From NCBI RefSeq assembly GCF_000317795.1, contig NC_019791.1, forward strand, positions 62,001 through 126,000: a stretch of 64,000 bases of DNA, read 5' to 3'. This stretch comes from Caldisphaera lagunensis DSM 15908. Its GTDB lineage: Archaea > Thermoproteota > Thermoprotei_A > Sulfolobales > Acidilobaceae. The notes under the pieces are model-generated. The model did not search any database and was not told the DNA's origin. It worked only from the letters and a program-made list of their open reading frames with translations. This document shows positions 37,085 to 51,881 of the stretch, in pieces. A program made the translations under genes and the position numbers. The number at the start of each line of letters is the position of its first letter. The stretch's first letter is position 1.

Positions 37085-37793
37085 GGATCCCCCTTAACTC
37101 TTTAACAAGGTTTAATGAAGAATCTAATCCTTCTGAATCAATTTTCTTTATAAAAGCTGTTCCAATCGCGATTCCATCAGCTCCAGCTTTAATGACGCTA
37201 TTTATATCTTCATTAGATAAACCAAAGCCAACAATTAGTTTGTTGCTAACCAAAGGTCTTACTCTTTTTACTAAAATGTCTGGAGATATTGGTATTGGAA
37301 TACCTGTTGTAGGTCTTATTCCATAATATAGGAAAAGGTCACTATATTCAGAAACTTCTTTTAAAATCTTATCTGGTACTGTTGGGGAAACAAATATTAC
37401 ATCGTTTAATTCATTTCTTTTAACGAATTCATGGTATTTTTTGTATTCCCCTATGTAATCTATTATTAAATCAGGCATTAATACTCCTGCAAAATTATAT
37501 TTCTTCATCATTTTTAAGAAATTTTCTAAATCATTTTCGTGGTCTTCCAAATATGTTAAGGCAAGTGTTGGTTTTCTTATAATATGGCTTAAATTTTTAA
37601 ATTCATTTTCTATGTTTATTTTATTAACTTTTTTATAGCTTGATTTTATTGTTGGGCCATCATATTTAGCGTTGTTTGTGGGTATACCTATTTCTAATAT
37701 GTCGCAACCCAAATTTTGGGATTTATCAATAAATTCTAGAAAAGTATCTGAATTTGGATATCCTAAAGTCATGTAGCAAACTAGGTATTTCAT
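37071..37793 (-). CDS. trpA: Tryptophan synthase alpha subunit
   Basis: 240 residues, slightly short of the bacterial ~265. The catalytic acids are in DILEIGIP (Glu34) and KYDGPTI (Asp45). GVLMPDLI, FVSPTVPD and VGFGLSN follow the barrel order. It releases indole from indole-3-glycerol phosphate and passes it to TrpB. It shares one base with trpB. Confidence 0.95.
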   Translation of the reverse strand: MKYLVCYMTLGYPNSDTFLEFIDKSQNLGCDILEIGIPTNNAKYDGPTIKSSYKKVNKINIENEFKNLSHIIRKPTLALTYLEDHENDLENFLKMMKKYNFAGVLMPDLIIDYIGEYKKYHEFVKRNELNDVIFVSPTVPDKILKEVSEYSDLFLYYGIRPTTGIPIPISPDILVKRVRPLVSNKLIVGFGLSNEDINSVIKAGADGIAIGTAFIKKIDSEGLDSSLNLVKELRGILDET

Positions 37794-39061
37794 TATATCA
37801 GCCTCTTTGACATAGAATCATAGTTTGTTAGATCCAATAGACCATGACCACTTAAATTAAATACTATTGTTTTCTTTTCATTGTTTTTCTTTAATTCTAA
37901 TGCTTTCTCAATAACTGCCCTAATTGCATGTGCAGATTCAGGTGCTGGAACGATTCCTTGGGCTTTTATGAAAAGTTTAGCAGCATCAAAAATCTCTTTT
38001 TCGTTATATTCCTTCCACTTAACTAAATTTTCCTTAATTAATATACTTAATGTTGGTGCAACACCATGATATCTTAGTCCTCCCGAATAAATTGGCGGAG
38101 GCACGTAATTATGGCCTAACGTTATCATCTTAACCAAGGGAAGTAGTCCTGCTGAATCAGCAAAATCATATTTGTATTCTCCTTTACTGAACTTTGGTAT
38201 TTCTTCACTACCAACTGCTATGTATTCTTCTCCTATTTTGTTACCAATAAATGGGTATGAAAAACCTCCAAAATTGCTTCCACCACCTACGCAACCAATT
38301 AATATGTCAGCATTTTCCCCAATCATTTCCAATTGTTTCATTGTTTCTAATCCTATAATGCTTTGATGTAATATTGCAACATCTAATACGCTTCCAACAA
38401 GATATCTTAGTTTATTTTTTAAGGCATATTCAATGGCTTCACTCATAGCAATTCCTAAAGACCCTGGATGATTTGGATTTTCTTTCAATATGTTTAATCC
38501 GTATTCAGTTAAATTTGAAGGGCTTGCATATACATTTCCTCCATAAAGATTCATCAAAATCTTTCTCATTGGCTTTTGCTCATAGCTAACCTTTACCATA
38601 AATATTGTTGATTTCATGTTAAATAAAGATGCAGAAAAAGATACCGCTGTTCCCCATTGTCCAGCACCTGTTTCAGTTACCACATGATCAATTCCTTCGT
38701 TTAAGGCAAAATAAGATTGAGCTAATGCTGTGTTTATTTTATGAGATCCTGTTGGTGTTGCACCTTCGTATTTAAAATAAATCTTTGCTGGAGTATTCAA
38801 TGCATTTTCTAATCCTTTTGCTCTAATTAATGGAGTGGGTCTCCCTATTAGAATGTATTTTTCTCTAAGTTCATCTGGAATTTTTATGTATCTTTCTATT
38901 GTAAACTGTTGTCTAAGTATTTCTTTTGGTAATATTTCATTTAACAGATCTATCCTTGAGAATTCTCCATCAGGGGGATCCCTAGGAGGAGACAAGGGTA
39001 CAGGAAGATCAGGTATAATATTATACCAAAACTCAGGAAGGGATTCCTCATTACCTACCAT
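37793..39061 (-). CDS. trpB2: Tryptophan synthase beta subunit, TrpB2 type
   Basis: 422 residues. The PLP lysine is Lys108 in [10 protein letters not shown], and the phosphate loop is [10 protein letters not shown]. The extended N-terminus ([19 protein letters not shown]) and the helical insert before GRPTPLI mark the TrpB2 subgroup rather than bacterial TrpB1. It is first in the operon, directly before trpA, as in Sulfolobus, where a TrpB2 partners TrpA. The ATG at 39061 is 13 bases from the only good ribosome-binding site (39075-39079); a four-codon frame uses the proper spacing instead (see the leader entry). Confidence 0.94.
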
Positions 39062-39069
39062 TGGCGCAC
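39055..39069 (-). CDS. Possible four-codon leader frame (Met-Arg-Gln-Trp-stop) of the trp operon
   Basis: GTG 39069 lies five bases after GGTGG (39075-39079), the ideal distance. It reads GTG-CGC-CAA-TGG-TAG, ending four bases downstream of the trpB start. The trpB ATG is embedded in the CAA-TGG codons in another frame. A Trp codon before the stop, in front of a tryptophan operon, is suggestive of regulation, but a frame this short can arise by chance. Confidence 0.3.
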
Positions 39070-39104
39070 AAAGACCACCTGAACTTTTTTAGATTAAAGA
39101 CTAA

Positions 39105-39112
39105 TATTTAAA
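39105..39112 (-). promoter_or_regulatory. TATA box of the trp operon
   Basis: TTTAAATA on the minus strand preceded by a purine-rich (AAGAAAAA) BRE-like stretch. Transcription would begin near 39082, only a few bases before the ribosome-binding site. Confidence 0.6.
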
Positions 39113-39165
39113 TTTTTCTTAATATTTTATTGTTTTAATAATATATAATAATAAATATAGTAAAA

Positions 39166-39173
39166 TTTAAATA
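39166..39173 (+). promoter_or_regulatory. TATA box of the aro operon
   Basis: TTTAAATA on the plus strand. Transcription is expected near 39195, immediately before GAGGTGGAG (39197-39205). It faces the trp promoter in a ~150-base divergent region that could hold a shared operator. Confidence 0.6.
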
Positions 39174-39208
39174 GTGGGAATATACAAAGAAATGTTGAGG
39201 TGGAGTTG

Positions 39209-39253
39209 ATGGGGTTCCAATGGGGCGAGGGCATGATGCCCAGCCAATATTAA
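39209..39253 (+). CDS. Possible 14-residue leader peptide of the aro operon
   Basis: ATG 39209 lies five bases after GGTGG (39199-39203), the best ribosome-binding site of the operon. It encodes MGFQWGEGMMPSQY then TAA. Phe, Trp and Tyr, the three end products of the pathway, each occur once. The transketolase frame has no comparably placed site: its ATG 39220 is 16 bases away and GTG 39271 has only a weak AAGG. The frame may be a regulatory leader or a coincidence. Confidence 0.35.
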   Translation: MGFQWGEGMMPSQY

Positions 39254-39987
39254 ATAAGGTTCCTTCCTTTGTGTTAAATCCTGAGAATGTATATGAAAAA
39301 ATTGTTGAGAAAAAAACTTTGGCTAATGAGTTCTTGAATGATTTCCTCAAAAAAATCAATAATTATCATGGAGACTCTTCAAGATCAGTATTAAATATAT
39401 TGATTACATTATATGATTATTGGATTCCAAAAGGTATTGGTCTAGGCATTTCAAGATCTATAATACTAAGCAAGGGACATGCATCACCTGCATTATATAC
39501 ATTGCTAGCTTTAAATAAAGAAATAGACTATGATGAACTAGATACATTCGCAACGCCAAATTCCCGTTTGCAATCTCATCCTGAAGGTGGAAAGATACCT
39601 GGTATATTGTTTTCAACGGGTTCATTAGGCCAAGGTTTGTCTATAGCAAATGGAATCGCATATGCTGCAAAATTAAACAATGAAAATAAGGAAATTGCTG
39701 TTATATTAGGAGATGGAGAATTAGATGAGGGACAAATATGGGAATCAATATCAACATCTTATTCCTTAAAAATAGACAATATTTTAGCAATAGTTGATAG
39801 GAACGGATTTCAACTATCCGGACCCACTGAAGAAATAAAAATAAAAGAATCCATTAAGAAAAAATTTGAAGCATTTGGTTGGTATACTGTAGAAGTTAAG
39901 AACGATATAAAAGAATTAATGATAGCATTAGATCTCGTTTCTGAAATAAAAGGATTGCCAAGGGCTTTAATTGTGAAAAGTGGTTAA
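39220..39987 (+). CDS. Transketolase, N-terminal (thiamine-diphosphate binding) subunit
   Basis: About 240-255 residues, half of a split transketolase. Motifs: LSKGHASPALYTLLA, GSLGQGLSIANGIA and the ThDP/Mg motif GDGELDEGQIWE. With the next gene it interconverts sugar phosphates and supplies erythrose-4-phosphate for the shikimate pathway. It heads the aro operon. Start uncertain: ATG 39220 gives 18 residues of non-family sequence, and GTG 39271 fits the family N-terminus better. Confidence 0.9.
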   Translation: MGRGHDAQPILNKVPSFVLNPENVYEKIVEKKTLANEFLNDFLKKINNYHGDSSRSVLNILITLYDYWIPKGIGLGISRSIILSKGHASPALYTLLALNKEIDYDELDTFATPNSRLQSHPEGGKIPGILFSTGSLGQGLSIANGIAYAAKLNNENKEIAVILGDGELDEGQIWESISTSYSLKIDNILAIVDRNGFQLSGPTEEIKIKESIKKKFEAFGWYTVEVKNDIKELMIALDLVSEIKGLPRALIVKSG

Positions 39988-49482: not shown

Positions 49483-49572
49483 TATATCCCCAAATTAATT
49501 TAATTTATTCAGAATTTTAAATTCAAATCAATACTGTATTTGACAGTAGCATTAACATTTTATATAATAAAA

Positions 49573-49580
49573 TTTAAATA
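49573..49580 (+). promoter_or_regulatory. TATA box of the aspartokinase operon
   Basis: TTTAAATA, predicting transcription from about 49603, just before GAGGTGGGG (49608-49616). The geometry equals that of the trp and aro promoters. Confidence 0.6.
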
Positions 49581-49616
49581 CTCGTTAGTTAAACTAGTGG
49601 GAAATAAGAGGTGGGG

Positions 49617-49652
49617 ATGATGAAACGCCAAACAAAAATTATAGGCGTATAG
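49617..49652 (+). CDS. Possible 11-residue leader peptide of the aspartokinase operon
   Basis: Directly behind GAGGTGGGG, two ATG codons open MMKRQTKIIGV then TAG. Met, Lys, Thr and Ile, the products of the aspartate pathway, make up seven of the eleven residues. Lys and Ile are common in AT-rich genomes, so the bias alone is weak evidence. A T-rich stretch follows before the aspartokinase gene. Confidence 0.4.
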   Translation: MMKRQTKIIGV

Positions 49653-49656
49653 TAGT

Positions 49657-49685
49657 TCTTTTATTTGATTATGATTTAGTTTTTT
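49657..49685 (+). terminator. T-rich tract between leader frame and aspartokinase gene
   Basis: TCTTTTATTT (49657-49666) and T6 (49680-49685) lie between the leader stop and the ribosome-binding site of the aspartokinase gene. TAGTTCTTT occurs twice (49653-49661 and 49702-49710). In archaea such T runs can terminate transcription, so this could be a conditional terminator. Confidence 0.35.
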
Positions 49686-49728
49686 CGAAATTAGATAAGA
49701 TTAGTTCTTTAATTTTGAGGTGTCCCTT

Positions 49729-50820
49729 ATGAAATACGATGTTTTAAAAATTGGAGGATCTATTTTGTCAACACCTAAATCTTATATAGATGTTTCTATG
49801 TATATAAAGAAATTCGTTGAAAAAAACAAAAGATTAATTATAGTTGTTTCTGCCCTTAAAGGAATGACTGATCTTTTAATAGATTTTTATGATAATAATA
49901 ATAAAAATGCCTTAGACAAATTTATTGAAAAATATCAAGATGTGGTATTTTATTTTGACAATCAGGAACTAAAATATAAATTTAATAGTTTAATTAATGA
50001 ATTATTAAATATAGCAAAGAATGGGAGAAACCATGATTTAAAAATTAGAGACAAAATATTATCTTATGGAGAAAAAATTAGCAAGTTAATTTTATTTTAT
50101 GCACTCAAGATTAATGATTTAAATGCAACTCCTTTGAATGCTGATGATATAATAATTACAGATAATAGATATGGAGATGCATTTATTGATTTAGATAAAA
50201 CATCTAACAATTTACATTTAAACGAAGACATTTATTTAATAGAAGGATTTATAGGTAGATCATATGAAAATTACATAACTACATTGGGTAGAGGAGGTTC
50301 AGATTATACTGCATCTGTGCTATCTTATTTAATAAATGCAGACAACCTTTATTTAATAACAGACGTGCCTGGTATATATTCAAGCGATCCTAGGATAGTT
50401 AAGAATGTAAAAATAGTAAAAAGATTGAATTTTGAAGAGGCAATAGAAGCTTCAACATATAATGTAAAGGGTATTAATTATAAAACATTTTATCCTTTAA
50501 TTAATAGCAAAATTAATGTTTACATTGGTACTTTTGACAATTTTAATACTATAATAAACAGCAAACCACTATACAATGAGCATGTGAAGTTATTTGGATT
50601 AAAGCATGCAAATGAAATTAAATCAATAGGATTGATAGGTTATGGAATGAATAAAGATTTTATAATAAAAAGGATTTATAACTTATTTGATGGAAATCAT
50701 AATGACATTATGATAAATAAAAATGGAGAAAAACCCTCAATGCATATAAATGTTAAGACTGATGATTTCCATAATTTTGTTAATTTATTACATGATGAAT
50801 TGATAGGTGATAATTTATGA
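49729..50820 (+). CDS. lysC: Aspartokinase
   Basis: About 363 residues from ATG 49729 (GAGGTG at 49717-49722); the frame opens at GTG 49720. The kinase domain is intact: VLKIGGSIL, SALKGMTDLL, GFIGRSYENYITTLGRGGSDYTASVL and TDVPGIYSSDPRI. The C-terminal part after residue ~290 is only ~75 residues, room for about one ACT-like unit (IKSIGLIGYGMNKDF...MHINVKTDD) instead of the usual two, so feedback inhibition may be altered. It phosphorylates aspartate for Met, Thr, Ile (and possibly Lys) synthesis. It overlaps asd by four bases. Confidence 0.92.
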   Translation: MKYDVLKIGGSILSTPKSYIDVSMYIKKFVEKNKRLIIVVSALKGMTDLLIDFYDNNNKNALDKFIEKYQDVVFYFDNQELKYKFNSLINELLNIAKNGRNHDLKIRDKILSYGEKISKLILFYALKINDLNATPLNADDIIITDNRYGDAFIDLDKTSNNLHLNEDIYLIEGFIGRSYENYITTLGRGGSDYTASVLSYLINADNLYLITDVPGIYSSDPRIVKNVKIVKRLNFEEAIEASTYNVKGINYKTFYPLINSKINVYIGTFDNFNTIINSKPLYNEHVKLFGLKHANEIKSIGLIGYGMNKDFIIKRIYNLFDGNHNDIMINKNGEKPSMHINVKTDDFHNFVNLLHDELIGDNL

Positions 50821-51881
50821 AGTTTAATGTTGTTGTAGTTGGGTCAACTGGATTAGTGGGACAAAGGCTTGTCTCTATGCTATCAAAACATCAATGGTTT
50901 AATTTAATAGGCATTACTGCATCAAAGGATAAGGCAAATAAGAAATATAAAGATGTAGTAAAATGGAGCCTAGAAAATAAAATGCCAGAAAACGTTGAAG
51001 AAATGATAGTATACGATACAAATATTGAAAATATAAATAACTTAAAACCAGATATTGTATTTACATCACTTCCTACTGATATCTCAAAGGATTTCGATAT
51101 TCAACTAGTAAAGCAAGGTTACGTTGTTATATCTCATGCGAGCAATAATAGGATGGATAAAGATGTACCTCTTTTAAATCCTGAAGTTAATGCAGATCAC
51201 ATAAATGTCTTAAAATTACAAGCTAATAGATGGAAGGGAAGATTAATTAAGGTACCTAATTGTGCAACTTCTATTTTAACTTTGGCATTAAAACCCATTT
51301 ATGATAACTTTGGTTTGCGCCATGTTTTTGTATCAACAATGCAGGCTTTATCTGGGGCTGGAATTAATGGTGTTTCATCAATGGCCATCCTAGATAACAT
51401 TATACCTTATATTGAACATGAAGAAGAAAAAATTGAGAATGAAAGTTTAAAAATACTTGGAGAATTATCAAATGAAAGTATAAAACCAAATGAAAGTTTT
51501 TATGTATCAGCTTCAGTCCATAGAGTTAATGTACTAGAAGGACATTTAGAAAGCGTTTTCTTAAAGACTGATAATGATGTTAGTGTTGAAGAGATTAAGA
51601 AGAGTTTAATTGAATTTAAAGAAAATAAAATAAAGAATTTAAATTTGCCAACTAAACCATCTCAACCTATAATTGTTAGAAATGAAATAGATAGACCACA
51701 ACCAAGATTGGATAGAAATGAAGGAAATGGAATGAGTATAGTAGTAGGAAGAATTAGGAAGGATAATAGAAATTGGATCAAATTTAATGTTTTAGGTCAT
51801 AATACAATAAGAGGAGCAGCTGGTAATGGAGTTTTAATAGGAGAACTTGTTGCAAAAAATTACAATGATATTATTCAATAA
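50817..51881 (+). CDS. asd: Aspartate-semialdehyde dehydrogenase
   Basis: 354 residues. NADP motif VVGSTGLVGQRLV at the N-terminus, the catalytic Cys in KVPNCATSILTLAL, and SASVHRVNVLEGHLES with the catalytic His. It reduces aspartyl phosphate to the semialdehyde, the branch point for threonine and methionine. It overlaps the convergent exonuclease gene by 11 bases. Confidence 0.95.
   Translation: MKFNVVVVGSTGLVGQRLVSMLSKHQWFNLIGITASKDKANKKYKDVVKWSLENKMPENVEEMIVYDTNIENINNLKPDIVFTSLPTDISKDFDIQLVKQGYVVISHASNNRMDKDVPLLNPEVNADHINVLKLQANRWKGRLIKVPNCATSILTLALKPIYDNFGLRHVFVSTMQALSGAGINGVSSMAILDNIIPYIEHEEEKIENESLKILGELSNESIKPNESFYVSASVHRVNVLEGHLESVFLKTDNDVSVEEIKKSLIEFKENKIKNLNLPTKPSQPIIVRNEIDRPQPRLDRNEGNGMSIVVGRIRKDNRNWIKFNVLGHNTIRGAAGNGVLIGELVAKNYNDIIQ

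Follow-up and report, generated by a model that had tools for sequence, protein, structure and literature searches.

The trpL, thrL and pheL leaders of bacteria act through terminator and antiterminator hairpins. The leaders described here resemble them in consisting of a short Shine-Dalgarno-led frame with an end-product codon, in which a starved ribosome would be the sensor, but they have no hairpin, usually carry one sensor codon behind C_CAA, and have the gene in the -1 frame. Frameshifting on pheL is described as incidental in a passage of Atkins et al. 2016 (PMC5009743). A passage of the same source deals with the ermC leader induced by telithromycin, on which ribosomes change frame and translate the spacer, and the downstream gene can start; the signal there is an antibiotic and the shift opens mRNA structure, whereas the leaders described here would respond to a missing aminoacyl-tRNA, and their new frame is mostly the gene itself. 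In hungry-codon frameshifting (Gallant and others), the P-site tRNA slips if the A-site codon is without an aminoacyl-tRNA, and the pertinent section of a 2021 review (PMC8211752) treats the -1 slip of one P-site tRNA at a hungry codon as known biochemistry that requires no extra stimulator. This process differs in having been studied chiefly as a starvation effect, and an excerpt of Atkins et al. 2016 states that "no examples are known" of trans-frame proteins with a starvation-specific function (PMC5009743). A -1 shift in a crenarchaeote is also known from fucA1 of Saccharolobus solfataricus, which differs in using an A-AAA-AAT slippery heptamer inside an enzyme gene; it is the sole archaeal programmed -1 case reported in the corresponding section of the 2021 review (PMC8211752). 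A literature search on archaeal leader attenuation, starvation or leader frameshifting, and crenarchaeal uORFs returned no such system, most subscription journals being outside its coverage. Control of archaeal amino-acid operons is described mostly as the work of DNA-binding proteins. One example is TK0271 (an excerpt of PMC6737238).

We analyzed a 64,000-nucleotide window of Caldisphaera lagunensis DSM 15908 (NC_019791.1, positions 62,001 to 126,000), whose genome is one contig of 1,546,846 bases. The window holds three leaders of one family, before aspartokinase, the trp operon (VRQW) and the aro operon (MGFQWGEGMMPSQY). We predict that the members of this family sense amino acids through programmed -1 frameshifting at a hungry codon, and we give this reading a probability of about 0.78. 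The features of the aspartokinase locus are these:

49573-49580, plus strand: TATA box TTTAAATA of the aspartokinase leader transcript (from the sequence; aligned in three species)
49608-49613, plus strand: leader Shine-Dalgarno GAGGTG, its GGTG 6 nt upstream of ATG 49620
49617-49652, plus strand: leader frame (M)MKRQTKIIGV-stop, conserved in the congeneric genomes G002 and G004; stop TAG at 49650-49652
49628-49634, plus strand: proposed shift site C_CAA_ACA, with the Gln codon in the P site and the Thr codon in the A site
49631-49732, plus strand: -1 frame, 33 open codons that begin at the Thr codon and cross the T-rich spacer; likewise open in G002 and G004
49680-49685, plus strand: T6 run, a possible terminator; coding when read in the -1 frame
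49717-49722, plus strand: aspartokinase Shine-Dalgarno (from the sequence)
49729-50820, plus strand: aspartokinase gene (NCBIfam asp_kinases, slightly below cut-off)
50817-51881, plus strand: aspartate-semialdehyde dehydrogenase gene of the same operon (NCBIfam asd_EA)

An earlier note on this DNA had described the TATA box, the Shine-Dalgarno, the frame, the T6 run and the second Shine-Dalgarno, and all are present in the sequence where it had placed them; its count of seven Met, Lys, Thr or Ile residues among eleven is also right. The leader start is ATG 49617 or the second ATG, 49620, and only the latter sits 6 nt after GGTG. The same aspartokinase occurs in two congeners at 74% and 54% identity; aspartokinase, homoserine dehydrogenase and trpE had no match in two other congeners (drafts 75% and 92% complete). 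The alignment that the earlier note had proposed finds the frame conserved in the three genomes with this aspartokinase, and the spacer that follows diverges. The leaders read MKRQTKIIGV, MKRQTKMLSV and MKHQTKMLDV. A role as sensors for all seven residues is not supported: the Ile codons change to Met-Leu, and only the Thr codon behind C-CAA is common to this leader and those of other threonine genes. Lys, Ile and Met were rejected as sensors, their codons not being conserved among the three species. Going by the aligned sequences, the residue sensed by the aspartokinase leader is Thr, and its reading of a pathway amino acid downstream of a conserved TATA box stands as the note had it. The C before CAA is retained in G004 even though Arg is replaced by His there.

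Of the 197 genomes of the order, three contain the block GTGGGANNTAAGAGGTGGNGATGATGAAACNCCAAACAAAAAT, in a single copy, and these are the three of the genus with this aspartokinase. The block is nearly constant in these species, and the 75-95 bases after it diverge. Among the intergenic stretches of the syntenic region that could be aligned three ways, the 58 columns with the highest conservation (49 of them identical in the three genomes) lie in the leader block. All codon changes within it are non-synonymous and none synonymous, as might be seen if it were a conserved RNA or DNA element (a protein site or a riboswitch) that contains a frame by chance. We consider this extremely unlikely: across genera only the Shine-Dalgarno, the start, C_CAA and the codon X behind it are common, X tracks the pathway, lengths vary, and Rfam gave no match for the leader region. 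We also rejected a C/D-box sRNA starting from ATGATGA (by eye, the block is without a CUGA D box) and a hairpin of ACGCC with GGCGT within the leader, the pairs of which are lost in the other two species.

The earlier note had proposed leader control through the T tract. The leader part of this proposal stands; termination is not needed, since the tract is open in the -1 frame, where it forms the reading frame NKNYRRIVVLLFDYDLVFSKLDKISSLILRCPL, which closes at the start codon of aspartokinase. Ribosome-mediated transcription attenuation, in which a stalled leader ribosome decides whether polymerase terminates at the T tract, would be consistent with a leader that has a cognate codon and with a T5-T6 run at a comparable position in all three species. 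According to the part of PMC8116511 that bears on it, a poly(U) stretch can terminate transcription by archaeal polymerase, an outcome that coupling may avert. Attenuation is still quite unlikely as the mechanism. We found no hairpin in the aspartokinase leader region (fold z-score -0.27), terminator and antiterminator included, and no Rfam family; in most relatives the leader overlaps the gene, which leaves no room for an attenuator; and the constant C_CAA, the constant -1 frame and the bridging -1 frames described below would go unexplained. Termination at an untranslated T run is possible as a second layer.

In the frameshifting reading, a ribosome would initiate on the leader from its strong Shine-Dalgarno. 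With ample Thr-tRNA, ACA would be read and the ribosome would end at 49652 and leave, and there would be little translation of the gene. Under a shortage of Thr-tRNA, a ribosome would wait at ACA with its A site unfilled and with peptidyl-tRNA-Gln paired to CAA in the P site. The tRNA-Gln would slip back by one base onto CCA (site 49628-49634), and two of its three pairs would survive, since CAA always has a C before it. Translation would then continue in the -1 frame, which in most relatives is the biosynthetic gene. In Caldisphaera the ribosome would read 49631-49729, meet the stop TGA at 49730-49732, which overlaps the aspartokinase ATG (ATGA), and restart there. The T run would be translated after the slip; when untranslated it may also end transcription, adding to the effect. 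Genome comparison establishes the leaders, their cognate codon, the invariant C_CAA, the -1 relation and the bridging frames, and from these we infer that the tRNA slips, that it does so under starvation and that ribosomes restart.

Shine-Dalgarno-led frames of at most 30 codons that contain NNC-CAA occur four times on the two strands of the window: the aspartokinase, aro and trp leaders and one within aroA. The latter two leaders belong to divergent operons:

39209-39253, plus strand: aro leader MGFQWGEGMMPSQY-stop, with sites C_CAA_TGG at 39217-39223 and C_CAA_TAT at 39244-39250
39220-39987, plus strand: gene for the transketolase N-terminal subunit (tktN), first gene of the aro operon (to 47181), in the -1 frame of the aro leader
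39055-39069, minus strand: trp leader (GTG)RQW-stop, with site C_CAA_TGG at 39058-39064 and Shine-Dalgarno at 39075-39080
37793-39061, minus strand: trpB2, in the -1 frame of the trp leader, heading the trp operon

The trp operon runs trpB2-A-D-F-E-G-C (to 32987), and the aro operon encodes both transketolase halves, DAHP synthase and aroB, E, C, K, A and D. GGTG lies 6 nt upstream of the start codon in all three window leaders, giving each its own ribosome-binding site. The trp leader is identical in G002 and G004, and the aro leader reads M[GE][FY]QWGEGMMPSQY across the three species; its block surfaced as a second conserved Shine-Dalgarno-led block when the control intergenic stretches were aligned. 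In genome G000 the pattern GGTGN{4,8}RTGN{0,9}CGCCAA matches only at the aspartokinase and trp leaders (2 matches; reversed control 0). The other PALP genes and hom of Caldisphaera have no such leader at their loci. The roughly 158 bases at 39062-39219 hold both promoters and most of both leaders of the divergent operons. At the start of a second trpB2 paralogue (L062, G000:C1:659796-661031), TTG TGG TAA overlaps GTG GTA AAG; this places a Trp codon and a stop in another frame, without C-CAA and at a spacing of 8 nt.

The comparison across genomes shows a family of short Shine-Dalgarno-led frames with NNC-CAA-X, in which X is a codon for the pathway product. The family is spread over nine taxonomic families of one order and also occurs in two genomes from other orders. 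These short frames are almost certainly cognate leaders. Among trpB2 loci chosen by protein homology, NNC-CAA-TGG precedes the gene in 25 of 25 examined, a set that excludes the fragments L188 and L189, weak matches and second paralogues. Protein homology in 48 genomes of the family gave 20 tktN loci, 16 of which have a Shine-Dalgarno-led leader bearing C-CAA-Tyr/Trp (examples are MQRQY, MRRQY, MEYQYR, MERQYLG, MSRQYVLI, MERQYL, VAERQYQFQW and MAGRQWRQY; L100 and L101 are outside the count, and L098 and L099 are remote paralogues without a leader). Genes for threonine synthesis (aspartokinase, hom, thrB and thrC) have C-CAA-Thr, with one Met exception, the leader MRQML ahead of a thrB-like gene in L023 (about 384). 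In other families, 10 of 27 aspartokinase loci have a C-CAA-Thr leader before hom, thrB, thrC or aspartokinase (one with Met); the other 17 have no such leader in the available DNA, and the operon head may be farther upstream. Leaders are present at 5 of 7 further aspartokinase loci of the family, three of them already in the first set.

A pattern search of the 48 genomes found 49 distinct places in frame, and 32 of them are cognate leaders (raw total 125 places against 73 in the reversed control, summed by hand; 122 rows were kept after removal of one duplicate and two overlapping rows). Its Thr leaders stand before aspartokinase (VRQTIW, VRQTI and VAARQTLE), thrB (VRQTI) and hom (MRQTRG). 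A class-wide search found trpB2-type patterns in 88 of 229 genomes, among them 27 of the 31 genomes of family f11 by our own count; the two genomes of other orders have trpB2-like leaders (L284 and L288). From the places listed we fetched 80 (60 and 20), omitting out-of-frame places and places in the family already seen. Gene names in the set of 60 were given by eye from N-terminal motifs. Judged by eye, the set of 20 contains 8 places that look real, 10 chance matches and 2 undecided; L285 and L289 are likely chance matches.

The base before the Gln codon is constant throughout the family. The residue there is R, S, P, H, F, Y or L, and the third base of its codon is always C. In the sets chosen by homology, where C was not required, the Gln codon is CAA and is preceded by C in 25 of 25 trpB2 leaders (as CGC, AGC or CCC) and in 16 of 16 tktN leaders (as CGC, TAC or TTC); the 27-locus aspartokinase scan required this C and is excluded as evidence for it. 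For comparison, 16 genes of the window have third-base C in 7.0% of their codons, and their 206 Arg codons include a single CGC. Where a leader has several aromatic sensors, every Trp and every last Tyr has a C_CAA of its own before it (L096, which reads CGCCAATACCAATTCCAATGG, L097, L287, which covers W, F and Y, and the Caldisphaera aro leaders). The exception is the aromatic third residue of the Caldisphaera aro leaders and of L088, which has no preceding C_CAA. A -1 slip of tRNA-Gln to CCA would need the C, and stalling alone would not. NNC_CAA_X does not fit the classical slippery heptamer X_XXY_YYZ, and a slip from CAA to CCA would leave a mid-codon mismatch. The Shine-Dalgarno lies 12-15 nt upstream of CAA in most leaders; in bacteria, comparable spacing is said to promote -1 frameshifting.

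Leaving aside the Caldisphaera aspartokinase leaders, all 34 leaders of this set have the structural gene in a -1 frame that is open from the sensor codon on, counting L147, where the -1 frame is a gene-length frame. Among the 60 further loci, which were fetched by pattern, 53 have the gene or a gene-length frame in -1 (about 45 of these resemble trpB2), 6 are bridged and in 1 the -1 frame is closed, so that 59 of 60 are fused or bridged; the closed case, L289, lies within another gene. An unbiased scan of the aspartokinase loci for Shine-Dalgarno-led frames 4-15 codons long, with 100 or more open codons beyond them, gave 17 frames with an open -1 frame, some of them inside genes, and 3 with an open +1 frame.

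One explanation without a frameshift is that the leader is completed and a nearby or overlapping gene start is then used. This would work in every Trp leader, where the gene ATG lies inside CAATGG. There is, though, no ATG, GTG or TTG between X and the conserved core in aspartokinase of G073, G031 and G196, nor in thrB of G154, hom of G200 or tktN of L087-L090. Termination and restart would also switch the gene the wrong way, the leader being completed only when the amino acid is plentiful, and would not lead one to expect -1 frames that stay open over as many as 130 codons; we regard it as very unlikely. Another explanation has the gene begin at an in-frame GTG or ATG upstream of the leader Gln codon, with the leader competing. 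Such codons are present 16-34 nt before X in most fused Thr and Tyr leaders, and a separate start is possible for each of these genes. They are absent from L086, L091, L096, L097, the three Caldisphaera aro leaders and 9 of 13 Trp leaders, and many of the candidates fall within the leader's own Shine-Dalgarno region. Leaders without a Shine-Dalgarno are reported as untranslated in a Sulfolobus cell-free system in an excerpt of PMC7531240, and two overlapping starts would leave the bridged genes unexplained. We give this account little chance.

In the bridged type the gene has its own start, and the -1 frame of the leader ends from -16 to +17 of that start in 15 of 15 leaders measured, a tolerance set post hoc on spacers that, where related, are not independent. 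The count leaves out L304, and 12 of the leaders are outside Caldisphaera. The offsets are +1, +8 and +17 for Caldisphaera aspartokinase; +1 (ATGA) for L018, -8 (97 codons) for L196 and +10 (73 codons) for L198 among other aspartokinases; +8 (37 codons) for L200, -16 (130 codons) for L009 and -14 (111 codons) for L011 before hom; -5 for each of L262-L264, -16 for L270 and +5 for L271 before aryl-CoA ligase-like genes; and +1 for L273 before trpD. The 15 bridging frames span 24 to 130 codons. Of the other two frames at these 15 loci, frame 0 closes 58-399 nt short of the gene start at all 15, and frame +1 closes 81-365 nt short of it at 12. In dinucleotide shuffles of the spacer, P ranged from <0.0002 to 0.51 (0.067, 0.071 and 0.015 in Caldisphaera), and by this test the open -1 frame of a few spacers is nothing out of the ordinary (0.51, 0.31 and 0.23). 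The bridging frames of L009 and L011 matched no Pfam family. Relative to the leader, the frame of the gene itself is not constant, and bridging is therefore not a relic of fusion. The upstream stop lies within a few bases of the next start in bridged cases, as in translational coupling. Two Aeropyrum-like genomes (names by eye) have trpD in the -1 frame directly (L305) and bridged over 64 codons (L304).

Judged from genome comparison, entry into the -1 frame is quite probably how the leaders act. For the aspartokinase leader of the window this is likely too, a little less so because it is of the bridged and not the fused type. It is also fairly likely that Crenarchaea use C_CAA_X as a modular frameshift code for amino-acid control, with X naming the amino acid. 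One module would be a single sensor (Trp or Thr), modules in a row an OR gate (Phe, Tyr and Trp before aro genes; L096 and L287), and two leaders in series a cascade (L262-L264, before the aryl-CoA ligase-like gene). Lack of the charged tRNA at any X would throw ribosomes into the frame of the gene, or along a bridging frame to its start. If true, this would be the first natural system to run metabolism by hungry-codon frameshifting, a whole order would use the ribosome as a sensor by the simplest means conceivable, a handful of codons, and the annotated N-termini of trp, aro and thr genes would be wrong in many Crenarchaea.

Several leaders have unusual arrangements or targets. The aro leader of L287, MEFQWGVRSRQFPEAGELPRQYRA, has C-CAA before Trp, Phe and Tyr codons successively. 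Two serial leaders, with a Trp and then a Tyr sensor, precede the AMP-binding (aryl-CoA ligase-like) gene in L262-L264, and in L264 the frame of the second leader is the -1 frame of the first. RQW leaders precede membrane-protein-like genes in the -1 frame in L147, L274 and L275; these genes possibly encode tryptophan transporters, and the two searched against Pfam (L147 and L274) had no match. Four genomes from two families (L281, L282, L283 and L291) have MHQW or MYQW leaders with C-CAA-TGG ahead of an unexpected target, a gene for a 4Fe-4S protein that lies in the -1 frame; the leader of L283 lies near the middle of the matched stretch.
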